NCBI RefSeq assembly: GCF_002117935.1
Contig: NZ_BDJE01000047.1
Location: 62,001-126,000, forward strand
Length of the DNA stretch: 64,000 nucleotides
Reading direction: 5' to 3'
From: Nocardioides sp. PD653-B2
GTDB taxonomy: Bacteria > Actinomycetota > Actinomycetes > Propionibacteriales > Nocardioidaceae
Part shown: positions 187 to 62,470 of the stretch, in pieces
How positions within the stretch are numbered: position 1 is the first letter of the stretch
Layout of the letters: each line of letters starts with the position of its first letter
Notes under the pieces: generated by a model
Told to the model about the DNA's origin: nothing
Database searches by the model: none
The model's input: the letters and a program-made list of their open reading frames with translations, nothing else
Position numbers and translations under genes: made by a program

Positions 187-765
187 TCAGGTGCGGGAGT
201 ACTTCTTCGCGGCGCGCGCAGCGATGACCCGGGCGCCGTACATCCGCATCTGAGCGAACTGCTCGCTGACGTTGAACGTTCGGGCGACCTTCGCGTTGTC
301 CCACCCCGCGTACGCCGCCTTGCGGGCACCCTCGTCCGGTACCAGCAGCTCACCGGAGATGAACGCGGCCTGCTTCTCTAGGGCCGGGTCGAACTGCTCC
401 TTGTGGTCCTCGCCGAGGATGACGCTGTCGAATGGGTGCTCCAGGAGGTGGTGGCCCATCTCGTGTGCGATGTTCGACCGACGCCGCACCTCCAGGTGCG
501 ACTCGTTCTCCACGATCACCCGCGCGGTACCCAGCGGCACCAGGGCCGCGGACCAGTCACGGGCGCCAGCGGCGTGGAAGTGGTCCCTGGTCTCGGGGTC
601 CAGACCGTGGTCGAGCAAGTCGGTCAGGGTGTAGGTAGGGATGCCGTGAGCCTCAGCGAGCTCGTACGGGTCCAACGGATCGAACGGATCGAGGCCGAGC
701 TCGTCACGTTCCTCTTTGGCGACCTCACGCATACGCGCCTGGGTCCACCCCTTCTTCGCGCTCAC
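187..765 (-). CDS. ImmA/IrrE family (COG2856) zinc metallopeptidase
   Basis: The 192-residue protein has the family's zinc motif HEMGH at residues 101-105, followed by a helix ending in GELLVP (138-143) with Glu130 as the likely third ligand. Family members such as ImmA, IrrE and CapP cut a partner HTH repressor and so turn on mobile-element or defence genes, often after DNA damage. The GTG start lies 3 bp after the stop of the XRE gene, so the two are one transcript. I infer that its substrate is that XRE protein. No membrane segment or other domain is visible. The family call is firm; the substrate is inference. Confidence 0.88.
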   Translation of the reverse strand: MSAKKGWTQARMREVAKEERDELGLDPFDPLDPYELAEAHGIPTYTLTDLLDHGLDPETRDHFHAAGARDWSAALVPLGTARVIVENESHLEVRRRSNIAHEMGHHLLEHPFDSVILGEDHKEQFDPALEKQAAFISGELLVPDEGARKAAYAGWDNAKVARTFNVSEQFAQMRMYGARVIAARAAKKYSRT

Positions 766-768
766 GGA

Positions 769-1152
769 TCAGTGGCCACCCTGGGTGCGCTCGGACTCGA
801 ACCGACGCAACGTGGCCTCGATGACGTCCTCCAAGTACGAACGGTTCTTGTCCGGCAGATCCGGCCTCGCTCGAAGCAAAGCAGTCAACTCCGACATCAG
901 GGGCGCCGGGTCACCGGTCGCTGGGGCGTCGTCGCCGGCCAGGTAGAACTTCTCCGCGTCCATCCGCAGCCAGGTGGTCATTGCCGCGAACGCGTTCACG
1001 TCCGGCTTTAGGCCCTGCTGCATCCGCGAGATCGTCGACGCGTTCACGCCGATCTCCTTCGCTAACCCCCTCCACGACAGATCTGCATCCTCGCGGGCCT
1101 TATCCAGCGCGGCGTGCAGCGTCTTCACGTCAACGGTCGGGCCGGTGTTCAT
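769..1152 (-). CDS. XRE-family HTH repressor, partner of the ImmA-like peptidase
   Basis: This 127-residue protein has a Cro/CI-type helix-turn-helix at about residues 25-50 (core GLAKEIGVNASTISRMQQG), then a helical C-terminal region with no named domain. It is transcribed away from the ubiquitin-like operon. The 139-bp gap between them holds two matching inverted repeats that are the likely operators. By analogy with ImmR/ImmA and CapH/CapP pairs, it probably represses both its own gene and the divergent operon until the peptidase cuts it. The DNA-binding role is clear from sequence; the target is inferred from position. Confidence 0.88.
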   Translation of the reverse strand: MNTGPTVDVKTLHAALDKAREDADLSWRGLAKEIGVNASTISRMQQGLKPDVNAFAAMTTWLRMDAEKFYLAGDDAPATGDPAPLMSELTALLRARPDLPDKNRSYLEDVIEATLRRFESERTQGGH

Positions 1153-1174
1153 CGGTGCCCCGAGAAGTAAGTGG

Positions 1175-1192
1175 TGCTTGAAGAGTCGAGCA
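1175..1192. promoter_or_regulatory. Imperfect operator copy (O1)
   Basis: TGCTTGAAGAGTCGAGCA is an imperfect 18-bp inverted repeat with the same layout (8-bp arms, 2-bp centre) as the perfect copy 36 bp away. It lies between the XRE start codon and the perfect copy, where it could block XRE transcription. Binding by the XRE protein is inferred. Confidence 0.6.
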
Positions 1193-1210
1193 TGTGTGAT
1201 ACGTTAGCAT

Positions 1211-1228
1211 TGCTCGAAACTTCGAGCA
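1211..1228. promoter_or_regulatory. Perfect 18-bp inverted repeat operator (O2)
   Basis: TGCTCGAAACTTCGAGCA has perfect 8-bp arms around a 2-bp centre. It sits just upstream of AT-rich -10-like sequence (TAAGAT 1230-1235, TAAAAT 1235-1240) of the plus-strand operon. A repressor bound here would cover the promoter of the ubiquitin-like operon. Confidence 0.7.
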
Positions 1229-1273
1229 GTAAGATAAAATCGCAACACCAGCAGGAACTCCGTACGCACCGAC

Positions 1274-1283
1274 AAAGGAGGGG
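1274..1283 (+). promoter_or_regulatory. Strong ribosome binding site for the ubiquitin-like gene
   Basis: AAAGGAGGGG ends 8 nt before the ATG at 1292. It is one of the strongest Shine-Dalgarno matches in the window and fixes the start. Confidence 0.75.
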
Positions 1284-1291
1284 CCGCCGCG

Positions 1292-1597
1292 ATGACCGCG
1301 ACCGCAACCGAGAAGCACACCGACGACAACGACAACAATGGGAACAAGGGTCACCCGACCAAGACGTTCACCCTCATCATCAACACCCGCAAGACCGACT
1401 GGAACAAGGAGCAGATCTCCTACGAGGACCTCGTGCAGATCCGCTTCCCCGGCAAGGTCCTCGACGAGACCGAAGAGGTCACCATCGCCTACACCCGTGG
1501 CCCGAAGGAGAACCGCGAGGGCTCTCTCACTGCCGGCCGCTCGGTGTACGTCAAGAACCAGATGACGTTCGATGTCTACCTCACGATCCGTTCCTGA
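1292..1597 (+). CDS. Ubiquitin-like protein, multiubiquitin family
   Basis: This 101-residue protein has a polar Asn/Asp-rich tail (1-22) and one beta-grasp-type domain (23-101). I recognise the multiubiquitin family (PF14452) from ISYEDLVQIRFPG and from the closing GSLTAGRSVYVKNQ then MTFDV. Family members are encoded next to E1-like enzymes and are the presumed modifier. Only one repeat is present. The C-terminus ends in ThrIleArgSer with no diglycine, so how it would be conjugated is unclear. The E1 gene overlaps its end by 26 nt, which suggests coupled translation. Conjugation to targets is not shown by the sequence. Confidence 0.85.
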   Translation: MTATATEKHTDDNDNNGNKGHPTKTFTLIINTRKTDWNKEQISYEDLVQIRFPGKVLDETEEVTIAYTRGPKENREGSLTAGRSVYVKNQMTFDVYLTIRS

Positions 1598-2759
1598 CCC
1601 GGACCTGGGTCGCCTCCTGGACGACGGCTACGACGTCGTCGTCCAGGCGGGCCACCTGGTGATCCGGCACATCCCGTACGTGACCGCCGACCGTGAAGTG
1701 CGCCTCGGGTTCCTCACCTACCCCGTGACCGTCTCCGGCGACCGGATCGTGTCCGACACCGACCACCGCATCTGGTTCGGCGGCGACACTATCCCCTGCA
1801 ACGAGCACGGCCACCAGATCAGCTGCGCCAACCCCGAGGAGCGGATCGTCTCCGAGAACTTCCGCGCCAGCTTCATGCTCTCGTCCAAGCCAGGCCCCAA
1901 CGGGTATCCCAGCGAGTACGAGAAGGTCGTCGCGTACGCCCGGATCCTGTCCCACCCGGCCGCCGCGATCGACCCGACCGCGACCGCCACTCCCGGTGCC
2001 GCTTGGCAGGAAGTCGAAGACGACCTCCCGTTCGTCTACCGCGACACCGCGGCCACCCGGGCCGGCATCGCATCGCTGTACAAGGTATTCCGCGGCCAGC
2101 GGATCGGCATGGTCGGCCTCGGCGGCTCCGGAGGCTACATCCTCGACCAGGTCGCCAAGACCCCCGTCGACGCGATCGCGTGCTTCGACGGCGACACCTT
2201 CGACAACCACAACGCGTTCCGCGCACCCAGCGCGGCCACGCTCGACAAGCTCCGCGAGCGGCCCAACAAGGCCGAGTACTTCGCTGAGCTCTACTCCAAT
2301 ATGCACACCGGGATCACCGCGCACCCGGAGTACATCGATGAGACCAACCTCCACCTGCTCGACGCGTTCACGTTCGTGTTCATCTCCATGGACGACACCA
2401 AGGCGAAGATCCCGATCATCAACTACCTCGTCGAGCACAACATCCCGTTCATCGACGTCGGGATGGGCGTCGAGGAGATCGATGGCAAGCTCTCCGGCCT
2501 GTTGCGCGTCACCCTCGGTCTCCCCGACACGACCCCCACCCGAGAGTCGGTCCCCGAGACCGACGACCCGGATCTCGACGACTATGACCGCAACATCCAG
2601 ATCGCCGACCTTAATGCGCTCAACGCGATCCTCGGTGTCATCACCTGGAAGCGACACCTCGGGCTCTACGCCGACGGCGCCCGTGAAACCTTCTTCACCT
2701 ACTCCCTTTTCACCAACCACATCACCCACCAGGACACCGTCCATGACGACGAAGACTGA
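1572..2759 (+). CDS. ThiF/E1-like adenylating enzyme with N-terminal DUF6791-like domain
   Basis: This 395-residue, two-part protein would activate the neighbouring ubiquitin-like protein at its C-terminus using ATP. Residues 15-120 resemble the DUF6791 domain, as I recall it, with VRLGFLTYPV and the DHRIWFGGDTIPCNEHGH stretch. Residues 165-375 are a Rossmann-type ThiF/E1 domain: GLGGSGGY at 182-189 binds nucleotide, D206 and D208 with N214 and R217 match the E1 DxD...NxxR pattern, and D274 follows in SMDDTK. After Cys204 there is no cysteine at all, so the usual E1 thioester residue is missing. The gene overlaps the ubiquitin-like gene by 26 nt and the next gene by 17 nt. Confidence 0.87.
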   Translation: MSTSRSVPDPDLGRLLDDGYDVVVQAGHLVIRHIPYVTADREVRLGFLTYPVTVSGDRIVSDTDHRIWFGGDTIPCNEHGHQISCANPEERIVSENFRASFMLSSKPGPNGYPSEYEKVVAYARILSHPAAAIDPTATATPGAAWQEVEDDLPFVYRDTAATRAGIASLYKVFRGQRIGMVGLGGSGGYILDQVAKTPVDAIACFDGDTFDNHNAFRAPSAATLDKLRERPNKAEYFAELYSNMHTGITAHPEYIDETNLHLLDAFTFVFISMDDTKAKIPIINYLVEHNIPFIDVGMGVEEIDGKLSGLLRVTLGLPDTTPTRESVPETDDPDLDDYDRNIQIADLNALNAILGVITWKRHLGLYADGARETFFTYSLFTNHITHQDTVHDDED

Positions 2760-3198
2760 CCAATACAAGCCGGAGTTCATCGAGTCCTTCCCGGACTCGA
2801 TGAACCCCGGCGTCCTGTACATCTCCATCGAGTACGGAACCTGCGGACATCTCTGCGCTTGCGGCTGCGGCAACGAAGTCATCACCCCGCTCGGCCCTGC
2901 TCAGTGGTCGCTCACCTACGACGGCCGCAACGCCTCACTCCGACCCTCCATCGGAAACTGGAGCTTGCCCTGCAAGTCGCACTACATCGTCGACCGCGGG
3001 GGAGTCGTCCGTTGGGCCCGCACCTTCACCGACCGCGAGATCGCCCGCAACCGCGACCGCGACCGCGCATTCTTCGCTCGCGGCGACGACGACCGCACCT
3101 ACGACGACTGGCCGCCCGCCCGCTGTGATCCGGGCGACGACGTCGACCAGCCGACCGGCTGGTTGCGGCCGTTCCTGGGGCGTGGCGGCGACCACTGA
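2743..3198 (+). CDS. DUF6527 protein, possible processing peptidase of the ubiquitin-like system
   Basis: This 151-residue protein matches the DUF6527 pattern: LYISIEYG, the cysteine cluster C34/C38/C40/C42 (CGHLCACGCG), then SIGNWSLPCKSHY (69-81) and VVRWA. DUF6527 proteins recur in bacterial ubiquitin-like (Bub-type) operons. I recall a proposal that they act as serine-dependent deconjugating peptidases (BubE), but cannot verify it here. Ser74, Ser79, Cys77 and His80 are the residues to examine. The ATG lies inside the E1 gene with a 17-nt overlap, so its level is tied to E1. The tail after residue 100 is Arg/Asp-rich and probably disordered. Confidence 0.82.
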   Translation: MTTKTDQYKPEFIESFPDSMNPGVLYISIEYGTCGHLCACGCGNEVITPLGPAQWSLTYDGRNASLRPSIGNWSLPCKSHYIVDRGGVVRWARTFTDREIARNRDRDRAFFARGDDDRTYDDWPPARCDPGDDVDQPTGWLRPFLGRGGDH

Positions 3199-17254: not shown

Positions 17255-18283
17255 ATGCCGATCGCCACCCCCGAGAAGTACGCCGAGATGCTCGACACCG
17301 CGAAGGCCAACGCGTTCGCGTTCCCGGCCATCAACGTGTCGTCCTCGCAGACCCTGAACGCCGCCCTCAAGGGCTTCGCCGACGCCGGCTCCGACGGCAT
17401 CATCCAGGTCTCCACGGGCGGTGCGGAGTACCTCTCCGGCCCGTCGGTGAAGGACATGGTCGCCGGGTCGGTCGCCTTCGCGGCGTACGCCGCCGAGGTC
17501 GCCAAGAACTACCCCGTCAACGTCGCCCTGCACACCGACCACTGCCCCAAGGACAAGCTGGACGGCTTCGTCCGGCCGCTGCTCGCGATCTCCGCGGAGC
17601 GCGTCGCCCGGGGCGAGGCGCCGCTCTTCCAGTCGCACATGTGGGACGGGTCCGCCGTCCCCCTCGACGAGAACCTGCAGATCGCCCAGGAGCTGCTGGC
17701 CAAGGCCGCGGCCGCGCACATCATCCTCGAGGTCGAGATCGGCGTCGTCGGTGGTGAGGAGGACGGCGTCGCCAACGAGATCAACGAGCAGCTGTACACG
17801 ACGCCCGAGGACGCGCTCGCGACCATCGAGGCGCTCGGCGCCGGCGAGAAGGGCCGCTACATGACCGCGCTGACCTTCGGCAACGTGCACGGCGTCTACA
17901 AGCCCGGCAACGTCAAGCTGCGCCCGGAGATCCTCCAGGCCGCCCAGGAGGCGGTCGCCGCCAAGCTCGGGCTGCCGGCCGGCTCGAAGCCGTTCGACCT
18001 GGTCTTCCACGGCGGCTCCGGCTCGTCGGCCGAGGAGATCGGCGCGGCGGTCGACTACGGCGTCGTGAAGATGAACGTCGACACCGACACCCAGTACGCC
18101 TTCACCCGCCCGGTCGCCGCCCACATGTTCACCCACTACGACGGAGTGCTGAAGGTCGACGGCGAGGTCGGCAACAAGAAGCAGTACGACCCGCGCGCCT
18201 GGGGCAAGGCCGGCGAGGCCGGCATGGCCGCCCGCATCGTCGAGGCCTGCGAGAACCTCCGCTCGGCCGGCAAGGCTGTCTGA
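17255..18283 (+). CDS. fbaA: Class II fructose-bisphosphate aldolase
   Basis: This 342-residue zinc aldolase cleaves fructose 1,6-bisphosphate in glycolysis and forms it in gluconeogenesis. The zinc ligands are in HTDHCPKD, HGVYKPGN and VFHGGSGS, with the class IIa motif LEVEIGVVGGEEDGV in between. Length is normal. The ATG is preceded by AGGAG. A hairpin follows the stop. Confidence 0.95.
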   Translation: MPIATPEKYAEMLDTAKANAFAFPAINVSSSQTLNAALKGFADAGSDGIIQVSTGGAEYLSGPSVKDMVAGSVAFAAYAAEVAKNYPVNVALHTDHCPKDKLDGFVRPLLAISAERVARGEAPLFQSHMWDGSAVPLDENLQIAQELLAKAAAAHIILEVEIGVVGGEEDGVANEINEQLYTTPEDALATIEALGAGEKGRYMTALTFGNVHGVYKPGNVKLRPEILQAAQEAVAAKLGLPAGSKPFDLVFHGGSGSSAEEIGAAVDYGVVKMNVDTDTQYAFTRPVAAHMFTHYDGVLKVDGEVGNKKQYDPRAWGKAGEAGMAARIVEACENLRSAGKAV

Positions 18284-18302
18284 CACCGGTTCGTCGCGCT
18301 GC

Positions 18303-18330
18303 CGGGGTCCCCGGGCAACCAGGGACCCCG
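18303..18330. terminator. Bidirectional terminator between fbaA and an MFS gene
   Basis: CGGGGTCCC (18303-18311) and GGGACCCCG (18322-18330) form a perfect 9-bp stem with a 10-nt loop between convergent genes. Confidence 0.75.
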
Positions 18331-18340
18331 ACAGGCGTCG

Positions 18341-19864
18341 TCAGTCGGTGACCGGGGCGGCCGGCGCGGGGGCGGCGGTGCCCGCGTAGCCCGCGTGGCT
18401 GGGCTTCTCGAAGAACAGCACGGCCAGGAAGCCGAGCACGAAGGCCGCGGTGGGCAGCAGCACGGACGTCGCCATCGCGTCGCTGAAGGCCTGCGCCACC
18501 GCGGGCGGCAGCGCCCCTCCGCCCGAGGAGCCCTCGCCCTTGAACGCCGGCAGGCCCTCGGCGGCCAGCCGCGCGTCCATGAGGACGGCGATGGCCGCGG
18601 CGCCGAGCACCGCGCCGACCTGGCGCGTCGCGTTGTAGATGCCCGACCCCGCTCCGGCCAGCTGGATCGGCAGGTTGCGGGTGGCGGTCGCGCTGTTGGG
18701 CGCCCAGACGAACGCGTTGCCGATGCCGAAGACGGCCATCGGCGGCACCGTCCACCAGATCGAGGTGTCCGGCGTCATCACGAACGTCAGCCACAGCAGG
18801 CCGACGAAGAGGCACGCGAAGCCGAACGCCGTCAGCAGGCGCGGGTGCACGCGGTCGGTGAGCCCTCCGACGAGCTTGGCGAGCGCGATCGTCATCAGCG
18901 CCATCGGCACCAGGATCAACGCCGACCGGGTCGGGCTCAGGCCGCGGACGACCTGCGCCCAGATCATGATCGGGATCGACAGCGAGATGATCGAGAAGCC
19001 CATCACGGTGATCGCGACGTTCGCCAGCGAGAAGTTGCGGTCGCGGAACAGCCCGAGCGGCACCAGCGGCTCGTTGCGGTTGCGTGCCTGCCAGAGCACG
19101 AACAGCCCGAGCACCACGAGCCCGGTCACGATCAGCGTCCAGATCACGCCGTTCCAGTGGAACTGGTGGCCCTCCTGGATGCCGAACACCAGCAGGAACA
19201 TGCCGGCCCCGCTGAGCGCGACGCCGAGCCAGTCGAACTGGTGGGTGTGGGTCGGCAGCTTCGGCACCAGCCGGGCCGCGAGCACGAAGCCGACCAGGCC
19301 GACCGGGATGTTGATGAAGAAGATCCACTCCCAGCCCAGGCCGTCGACCAGCACGCCGCCGAGGATCGGGCCGACCAGCGTCGCGACGCCCGCGGTCGCG
19401 CCCCACAGGGACATCGCGGCGCCCCGGCGGTCGGCCGGGAAGATCCGGGTGATGATCGCCATCGTCTGCGGTGTGATCATCGAGGCGCCGAGACCCTGGA
19501 CGACCCGGGCCGCGATCAGCATCTCGATGCTGCCGGTGAGCCCGCACCACAGCGACGCGAGCGTGAAGACCGTCAGGCCGACCAGGTAGACGTTCTTCGG
19601 GCCGAACCGGTCGCCGAGACGCCCGGTGATGAGCACGGGCACGGCGTACGCCAGCAGGTAGGCGCTGGTCACCCAGACGACGTTGTTGACGTCGGCGTGG
19701 AGGTCCTCGATGATCGCCGGCGTCGCGACGGACACGATCGTGGTGTCGATCAGGATCATGAAGAAGCCGATGCACAGCGCGAACAGCGCCGGCCACGGCG
19801 CCTTGTCTCCGGTCGGGTCGGTGGTCTGCCCGTGGGTCTGGGGAGCGGGGGCTGGCTGGGTCAC
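18341..19864 (-). CDS. MFS drug exporter, DHA2 (EmrB/QacA) family
   Basis: This protein of about 507 residues has 14 predicted membrane segments. Signatures are LIDTTIVSVATPAI in helix 1, the A-motif GRLGDRFGPKNVY, and GPILGGVLVDGLGWEWIFFINIP in the antiporter region. It is a proton-coupled exporter of drugs or other hydrophobic compounds; the substrate is unknown. I chose the GTG at 19864 because the extra upstream residues of the longer frame run back into the divergent DUF3151 gene. No dedicated regulator is next to it. Confidence 0.88.
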   Translation of the reverse strand: MTQPAPAPQTHGQTTDPTGDKAPWPALFALCIGFFMILIDTTIVSVATPAIIEDLHADVNNVVWVTSAYLLAYAVPVLITGRLGDRFGPKNVYLVGLTVFTLASLWCGLTGSIEMLIAARVVQGLGASMITPQTMAIITRIFPADRRGAAMSLWGATAGVATLVGPILGGVLVDGLGWEWIFFINIPVGLVGFVLAARLVPKLPTHTHQFDWLGVALSGAGMFLLVFGIQEGHQFHWNGVIWTLIVTGLVVLGLFVLWQARNRNEPLVPLGLFRDRNFSLANVAITVMGFSIISLSIPIMIWAQVVRGLSPTRSALILVPMALMTIALAKLVGGLTDRVHPRLLTAFGFACLFVGLLWLTFVMTPDTSIWWTVPPMAVFGIGNAFVWAPNSATATRNLPIQLAGAGSGIYNATRQVGAVLGAAAIAVLMDARLAAEGLPAFKGEGSSGGGALPPAVAQAFSDAMATSVLLPTAAFVLGFLAVLFFEKPSHAGYAGTAAPAPAAPVTD

Positions 19865-61405: not shown

Positions 61406-62470
61406 TTGAGCGAGTCGAACGCGTACGCCGAGGCCGGCGTCAACATCCAGGCCGCCGACACGGCGATCGAGCTGATGAAGGGCTGGATCGAGAAGTCCCG
61501 GCGGCCCGAGGTCATCGGGGGGCTCGGCGGCTTCGCCGGTCTCTTCGACGCCTCCGCGCTGACCCGCTACCAGCGACCGCTGCTCGCGACCTCGACCGAC
61601 GGTGTCGGCACCAAGGTCGCGATCGCCCAGGCGATGGACGTCCACGACACGATCGGTTTCGACCTGGTCGGGATGGTGGTCGACGACCTGGTCGTCTGCG
61701 GCGCCGAGCCGCTCTTCATGACCGACTACATCGCGACCGGGCGCGTCGAGCCGGAGAAGATCGCCTCGATCGTCAAGGGCATCGCCGAGGGCTGCGTGCT
61801 CGCCGGCTGCGCCCTGATCGGTGGCGAGACCGCGGAGCACCCCGGGCTGCTCGCCCCCGACGAGTACGACGTCGCCGGCGCGACCACCGGCGTGGTCGAG
61901 GCCGACAAGCTGCTCGGCCCGGGCCGGGTCCGCCCCGGTGACGTGGTGATCGCGATGGAGGCCTCGGGCCTGCACTCCAACGGCTACTCGCTGGTGCGCC
62001 ACGTGCTCCTGGAGAAGGCCGGTCTCTCGCTGGAGGCCCACCACGACGAGTTCGGCCGCACCCTCGGCGAGGAGCTGCTCGAGCCGACCCGGATCTACGC
62101 CAAGGCGTGCCTCGACCTCGCCGACCGCACCCGCACCCACGCGATGTCCCACGTGACCGGCGGCGGCCTGGCGGCCAACCTCCAGCGGGTCATGCCGGTC
62201 GAGCTGCGCGCGACCCTCGACCGCCGTACCTGGACGCCCCAGCCGATCTTCGACTTCGTGCGCCGTACCGGCGACGTGCCCCAGCCCGACCTCGAGGCGA
62301 CCCTGAACTGCGGCGTCGGCATGGTCGCACTCACCGACCCCGAGGACGCCGACACGGCGATCGCCGTGCTCGCCGAGCACGGCGTCCGGGCCTGGGTCGC
62401 GGGCGAGGTCACCGTCGACCCGGATCAGCGTGGCCGGGTCGAGCTGACCGGCCAGCACCCCGGCTGGTAG
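61406..62470 (+). CDS. purM: AIR synthetase
   Basis: This 354-residue enzyme closes the imidazole ring (FGAM to AIR). STDGVGTKVAIAQAM, DLVGMVVDDLVVCGAEPLF and GETAEHPG are family signatures. The start is TTG 61406 with AGGAG 8 nt upstream; it is the only clear TTG start in the window. It is probably cotranscribed with purF. Confidence 0.95.
   Translation: MSESNAYAEAGVNIQAADTAIELMKGWIEKSRRPEVIGGLGGFAGLFDASALTRYQRPLLATSTDGVGTKVAIAQAMDVHDTIGFDLVGMVVDDLVVCGAEPLFMTDYIATGRVEPEKIASIVKGIAEGCVLAGCALIGGETAEHPGLLAPDEYDVAGATTGVVEADKLLGPGRVRPGDVVIAMEASGLHSNGYSLVRHVLLEKAGLSLEAHHDEFGRTLGEELLEPTRIYAKACLDLADRTRTHAMSHVTGGGLAANLQRVMPVELRATLDRRTWTPQPIFDFVRRTGDVPQPDLEATLNCGVGMVALTDPEDADTAIAVLAEHGVRAWVAGEVTVDPDQRGRVELTGQHPGW

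Follow-up and report, generated by a model that had tools for sequence, protein, structure and literature searches.

How a ubiquitin-like (Ubl) modification pathway could run with neither a separate conjugating enzyme (E2) nor a deconjugase, and what would switch it on, is the question raised by five genes of Nocardioides sp. PD653-B2. The genes occupy positions 187-3198 of the window, by which is meant the whole 64,000-nucleotide (nt) stretch analysed, starting at base 62001 of the 180.5-kb contig NZ_BDJE01000047.1. The best reading of the operon is a stress-switched compact subtype of the Bub type that works without E2 or deconjugase. It is probably a compact operon of type 6e, the type now called Bub by our own mapping, and includes: (i) a Ser-ended Ubl, (ii) an E2-free activating (E1) enzyme, (iii) a DUF6527 partner, and (iv) an XRE-ImmA pair that serves as stress switch. 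The features are as follows.

187-765, minus strand: ImmA/IrrE-family (M78) metallopeptidase of 192 amino acids (aa) with an HEMGH motif, CapP-like but short (PF06114, 4e-16).
769-1152, minus strand: putative XRE-type helix-turn-helix (HTH) repressor of 127 aa in a CapH-like position (sub-threshold matches to HTH_31/HTH_3).
1175-1192, no strand assigned: operator-like palindrome O1, TGCTTGAAGAGTCGAGCA, conserved in homologous loci.
1211-1228, no strand assigned: operator-like palindrome O2, TGCTCGAAACTTCGAGCA, 36 nt from O1.
1292-1597, plus strand: single-domain Ubl of 101 aa with the C-terminus -Arg-Ser (PF14452, 1.2e-7).
1572-2759, plus strand: DUF6791-ThiF E1-like enzyme of 395 aa (PF20590, 1.7e-43; PF00899, 2.3e-9).
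2743-3198, plus strand: DUF6527 protein of 151 aa with a predicted zinc site, C38-C42-C77-H80 (PF20137, 9.4e-22).

All five genes are real and lie where an earlier note on this DNA had placed them. The family assignments of that note hold for the ImmA, Ubl, DUF6791, ThiF and DUF6527 parts, as a scan of the five proteins gives matches above the Pfam cut-off for PF06114, PF14452, PF20590, PF00899 and PF20137; the XRE gene stays below threshold, with a best HTH match of 8.6e-5. The ImmA-XRE pair is divergent from the Ubl-E1-DUF6527 core, as had been described, and the reading frames of the core overlap by 26 nt (Ubl/E1) and 17 nt (E1/DUF6527). ImmA has its peptidase motif, HEMGH, at residue 101, and the E1 carries DUF6791 at residues 10-159 and its adenylation domain from about residue 164. 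The PF14452 match is the only one in the whole 4.98-Mb genome.

The Ubl-E1-DUF6527 core recurs across phyla. A pattern scan with the E1 alignment over 84,980 species genomes gave 103 relatives, of which the best 80 were kept (among the labels of these 80 E1-tree rows are 37 Actinomycetota, 31 Pseudomonadota, 5 Bacteroidota, 2 Balneolota and 2 single rows), and 7 matches were found among 245 genomes of the order of the window. The comparison set consists of 86 E1-bearing loci, namely the 80, the window and five from the order-level search; L015, a 138-aa E1 fragment, was dropped, and counts over 83 loci omit L011, L012 and L013, which are copies, being the same contigs as L040, L039 and L052. 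E1 is followed by DUF6527 in 81 of the 86 loci, the remaining five being L031, L073 (contig end), L074, L084 and L090. In 68 of 83 loci, the 2.5 kb upstream contain an ImmA-family gene, and none of 74 has one downstream; an XRE profile match is upstream in 53 of 82 and downstream in 2 of 74. The conserved gene order and the restriction of ImmA to one side lie far outside chance expectation, and both the conserved core order and the XRE-ImmA linkage for which the earlier note proposed a check in other genomes are thereby borne out. In L090 (8064-9350), the DUF6527 match falls within the E1 reading frame, as a fusion or as a sequencing or reading-frame artefact. DUF6527 also occurs outside the system, Caulobacter vibrioides being the sole match of 14 control genomes; DUF6791 and PF14452 have no match in any of the 14.

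The compact operons differ from canonical Bub operons in what accompanies this core. The Citrobacter proteins BubA, BubB and BubCD (PDB 9ea4, 9ea5, 9ea8, 9eae and 9eav) exemplify the canonical form, with an E2 (BubB) and a JAB-E1 fusion (BubC), neither of which is found in the compact operons: E2 profiles have no match in the open reading frames around the compact E1s, and JAB has one weak match (0.027) in a separate open reading frame of L055 and none in an E1. The E2 family PF14462 matches in 1 of 31 chosen operon-bearing genomes and not in the genome of the window. By contrast, eleven canonical-type loci, ten obtained through PF14462 (L105-L109 and L113-L117) and one through DUF6527 (L112), carry an E2 and have JAB fused to E1, with the motif H-S/T-H...D. 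The two forms share an adenylation domain of the BubD type, an invariant Tyr, controllers of the CapH/CapP type and a downstream DUF6527 gene, the last of which is present in four of the five longer PF14462 loci (L105-L108, not L109; PF20137 at 3.9e-23 in L105). L113-L117 have no DUF6527 match, these 3.3-kb loci ending 79-199 nt past E1 (94-148 nt for those on the minus strand), and L112, having been identified by way of DUF6527 itself, lends no independent support to the sharing. Since canonical loci have DUF6527 and compact loci have no E2 or JAB, DUF6527 appears to be the common part and the compact form to drop the other two.

DUF6527 residues C38, C42, C77, H80 and Y81 are present in 81 of 81 sequences and C40 in 79 of 81; the conserved C38, C42, C77 and H80 suggest a zinc site, spaced C38-x3-C42-x34-C77-x2-H80. 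The DUF6527 model has no Foldseek match at E <= 0.001 and no VIA Z above 2.6, and a new fold is not claimed.

The operon type is already in print. In Iyer et al. 2006 (PMC1779556, Table 1, row 6e, note b), operon type 6e is listed with a JAB-less subset, in which the E1 has a 'domain X', by the authors' guess an analogue of JAB, and is accompanied by a small protein 'Y' predicted to bind zinc; occurrences of the subset are described there as scattered over proteobacteria, cyanobacteria and certain actinobacteria. By our own mapping, domain X is DUF6791 and protein Y is DUF6527. The Ubl has one domain here (one to three beta-grasp repeats in type 6e), the N-terminal domain of the E1 is in both cases unrelated to JAB (here DUF6791), and the metal-binding pattern of DUF6527 is like the one printed, C-x(3)-C-x(35-38)-H-x(2)-C, although the final C and H come in reverse order and the spacing is off by one. 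The available portion of that account makes no mention of an XRE-ImmA pair, operators or a Ser C-terminus. The earlier suggestion that the combination had not been described does not hold, in that the operon type, its JAB-less subset, the XRE/COG2856 linkage and CapH/CapP at Bub operons are all published. A literature search turned up no paper naming DUF6527 or DUF6791 and, among the results listed, no PF20137, PF20590 or PRK06153; features not found in print are the Ser C-terminus, the lack of both E2 and JAB, the Tyr in common with Bub-type E1s, the operator, and a constant core whose controllers are exchanged.

The Ubl has an almost invariable end. It was found in all of the 86 loci except L051 and L090, and its last residue is Ser in 83 of 84; the 84th (L041, 7710-7976) ends in Arg by a frameshift, with frame 2 continuing to TVRS-stop. 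In 82 of 84 loci, an ATG precedes the Ubl stop by exactly 26 nt. The E1 overlap was considered as the cause of the Ser and rejected: the Ser codons vary (TCG 44, TCC 18, TCT 12, TCA 7 and AGC 2) and the overlapping E1 codon is variously Arg, Pro, Leu, His or Ala; thus, the Ser is not forced by E1. The ZDHYS365 multi-ubiquitin domain protein (PDB 9cd2) is of the same Ubl class (5e-6), aligns to the last residue and ends TDKS, but is a 222-aa chain compared to the 101-aa Ubl of the window. The standalone Ubls of four canonical loci, by contrast, end in Gly, Gly, Gly and Arg when read by eye.

The adenylation residues G184, G185, G187, D206, D208, R217 and K233 are conserved in 59 of 59 compact E1s; no Cys is, the best being 43/59 at position 76 (in DUF6791) and then 27/59 at 272. 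The lack of a conserved Cys, of a detectable E2 and of a C-terminal glycine would fit an E1 that modifies the Ubl C-terminus itself in the manner of MccB, yielding a Ubl-nucleotide adduct and no protein conjugates, and PaaA and MccB do follow BubCD in the Foldseek list for the AlphaFold model of the E1 (pLDDT 90.4), and both are also in the profile list (MccB at 3.2e-4). An MccB-like fate of the Ubl is nevertheless unlikely, as Citrobacter BubCD is first by profile (9.7e-12), by Foldseek and in the VIA list (Z 24.8, root-mean-square deviation 2.9 Å, 224 residues), while MccB is outranked by TcdA and UBA5 in the profile list and by ThiF and MoeB in the VIA list; moreover, DUF6527 is also part of operons that bear E2 and JAB, and Y338 is common to BubCD-like E1s. 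Y338 is found in 59 of 59 compact E1s and aligns to a Tyr in 11 of 11 canonical-type E1s, located at residues 369-380 (sequences partly trimmed) in the seven that have a GY motif there. One BubCD entry of the PDB is titled D104A/Y370F, and we infer that Y370 of BubCD is the residue aligned with Y338.

A bolder proposal, offered as a tentative and rather doubtful one, is that the DUF6791-E1 is a one-protein, Cys-free Ubl ligase, in which a divergent E2-like domain is joined to the adenylating domain and the invariant Y338 would pass on the Ser-ended Ubl; there would be no dedicated deconjugase, so a protease-cut repressor would provide the control. CBASS Cap2 is an E2-E1 fusion. The compact E1 resembles Cap2 in having an extra domain N-terminal to the E1 part, to which weak PADLOC E1-E2 matches also map (2.1e-5); unlike the case of Cap2, no gene for a CD-NTase was noticed at the window. 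When the complete E1 model is searched against structures, the ThiF part dominates the matches and DUF6791 is barely probed; a DUF6791-only profile has one match in the PDB, at 0.36, to the unrelated enzyme cystathionine beta-lyase, and alignment of DUF6791 to JAB by hhalign scores 14.5 (probability 0.37).

The controllers are more varied than the core. Regulator classes were set by profile matches, strand and length over the 86 loci: (i) divergent XRE and ImmA in 39, (ii) an HTH-ImmA fusion in 15 (two of these, L027 and L037, are perhaps plain ImmA with over-long reading frames), (iii) ImmA with no XRE found in 12, co-directional in 10 of them, (iv) very long co-directional ImmA proteins in 5, and (v) single loci with co-directional XRE and ImmA, with a CapK/CapS-like regulator (L069) and with a CapW-like one (L079). 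The long protein of L064 (3786-7187) is directly upstream of the Ubl and combines M78, UvrD-type helicase and PD-(D/E)XK nuclease domains; those of L066, L067, L071 and L077 resemble it in length and in the HExGH and GPGTGKT motifs. The CapW-like label of L079 was given by eye to a WYL domain (2.9e-7), and that of L069, also by eye, to a winged helix (1.8e-6) with a weak HATPase match; both regulators occupy the place of the XRE-ImmA pair. On a quick 80-row E1 tree, which carries a long-branch warning, the regulator class changes at least 28 times and the phylum label 5 times, the least possible, which argues for an old core with interchangeable controllers. In certain Streptomyces loci, such as L018 (7373-7657), small genes lie between ImmA and the Ubl.

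HExxH is retained in 70 of 73 best ImmA matches. ImmA might be part of the Ubl chemistry itself, as a zinc-peptidase deconjugase that replaces JAB and is not just a regulator. Such a role would suit the loci in which ImmA is kept with no XRE found and the long co-directional proteins such as that of L064, with its UvrD and PD-(D/E)XK domains; however, JAB-bearing canonical loci also have ImmA (divergent upstream in four of six, L105, L106, L108 and L109, and downstream in L112, with none found in L107), and 12 of the 86 compact loci have neither JAB nor ImmA, so a deconjugase role is highly unlikely.

A regulatory role for the pair is instead indicated by its likeness to CapH/CapP, in which an XRE protein and a COG2856/M78 HExxH peptidase likewise adjoin an immune-like operon. 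The best PADLOC match of the window ImmA is capP (9.2e-9), and homologous loci have near full-length capP (positions 4-242) in L068 and L086 (8.8e-56 and 5.6e-47, in the order listed); the comparison drawn in the earlier note is upheld to this extent. According to the available part of a 2026 study (PMC13373217), 219 of 544 Bub operons have CapW or CapH with CapP. A 2016 survey (PMC4963859), in the part available, finds XRE/COG2856/DUF955 pairs beside 70% of PF14452 proteins and interprets them as toxin-antitoxin loci. A toxin-antitoxin module with no role beyond keeping the cassette stable, as proposed there for multiubiquitin cassettes, would also be in keeping with the mobility of the cassette, the E1 being found on 115 plasmid records. 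It is distinctly unlikely given the near full-length CapP of L068 and L086, the WYL- or CapK/S-like regulators that occupy the place of the pair in L079 and L069, and the location of all 14 operator matches in the divergent promoter region.

These operators are two 18-base palindromes, 36 nt apart, between the XRE and Ubl genes. Exact matches to TGCTYGANNNNTCGAGCA in the 4.98-Mb genome are O1 and O2 only, with five more places at one mismatch, and the pattern read backwards has 4 matches. The O2 18-mer is identical in L041 (Naasia) and L016 (Herbidospora). A slightly looser pattern, scanned on one strand over 1.29 Mb from 83 loci, gave 14 matches, all 204-397 nt before E1 at the XRE/Ubl divergence (in L016 and L029 inside a called, probably over-long, XRE frame), and the motif is found in 11 of 37 loci with divergent XRE and ImmA compared to 0 of 46 others. 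As the motif was derived from the window, the window and L010 are not independent of it; excluding these two leaves 10 matches in 9 loci. From layout and palindromes, the XRE protein would be the repressor of the operon.

Several results weigh against this account of the operon. Regulators of the kinds sought are missing from 12 of 86 loci (among them L073, a short contig, and L090, with its odd frame), and the CapK/S label of L069 rests on weak matches (HATPase 0.016). The operator motif is present in only 11 of 83 loci, all actinobacterial, and a motif-free palindrome test (60 shuffles per region, four near-copies left out and three loci skipped) gives p <= 0.05 in 10 of 32 regions, with 0.066 for the window. 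The window ImmA differs from CapP in that it matches positions 36-149 of the 242 in the capP profile, with the C-terminal part unmatched; thus, its trigger may differ from that of CapP. As to the E1, a search with the single sequence puts TcdA-like enzymes first and BubCD weakly (0.042), and hhalign of DUF6791 against PF14462-type E2s (11 sequences) scores 18.6, with controls up to 18.3 (DUF6527).

In the compact Bub-type operon proposed here, the Ubl would be made with its fixed Ser C-terminus, so no maturation protease would be needed. The DUF6791-E1 is predicted to adenylate this C-terminus and may pass the Ubl on with neither a conserved Cys nor a separate E2, such that the operon would carry out conjugation, with the DUF6527 zinc protein as a likely partner or target adaptor. 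By analogy to CapH/CapP, in which cleavage of the repressor is activated by ssDNA, the XRE protein would bind the two palindromes between the divergent genes and keep both sides off until stress, probably in the form of DNA damage, leads ImmA to cut it and so free the operon. Since no deconjugase was found, timing must lie largely in transcription.

The surroundings of the operon point to a mobile cassette. Another species of the genus has, at 80-91% identity, a block that starts about 2.2 kb to the left of the window and reaches base 3148; in that species a phage integrase adjoins it, and the compared DNA outside the block has no match. The first 2 kb of the window have a GC content of 64.9%, compared to 69-76% in the remaining 2-kb steps. 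Two genes with no Pfam match (146 and 271 aa; L002:17554-17994 and 18045-18860) lie about 1.4-0.1 kb left of window base 1, and both accompany the operon in G230 (L010), with a DNA identity of about 80%; the outer flanks compared there have no match. Among the plasmid records with the E1, 43 are mobilizable, 40 conjugative and 32 neither. A phage origin was rejected, as a search of 50,697 phage records came up empty at E <= 1e-5; among 2.9 million viral contigs, a pattern scan picked out 6 relatives.

The defence island supposed in the earlier note is not evident in the window, where the neighbouring genes, which were not put through PADLOC, look metabolic or housekeeping by eye: dnaK, grpE, dnaJ and hspR (by eye) are on the contig to the left and metabolic-looking genes to the right. 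At other loci, a survey of the two closest called genes on either side (90 aa or longer), with PADLOC and Pfam tallies and no control set, covered 124 of 130 genes upstream and 117 of 119 downstream; it omits 19 loci (near-copies, short contigs and the window), three genomes being lost in both copies. The flanks include matches to restriction systems, GajA, DrmC, LmuA, MzaA and IetS, and are otherwise a mix in which defence genes stand beside mobile and ordinary ones; of the Pfam families in the upstream genes, DUF3892 is the most frequent (6/124) and may include the small genes found between ImmA and the Ubl. A phage defence role is plausible. Protein modification in a stress response with no anti-phage role is a real possibility, though one we lean away from: it agrees with the window neighbours, which are unlike defence genes, and with the available part of PMC13373217, in which protection by Bub against phage is not shown, whereas the defence matches in the flanks of other loci, counted with no control set, speak against it.

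Related operons have been listed since 2006 with no known function, and the compact one is of a kind already known yet uncharacterised. If the proposal is true, Ubl conjugation would proceed from a Ser end with no separate E2, deconjugase or conserved Cys, and would thus inform the minimal needs of a Ubl pathway. The core is three genes of about 1.9 kb, which makes the functions of the 'domain X' and 'Y' of 2006 directly testable, and the common operator would offer a way into the question of what turns such pathways on.

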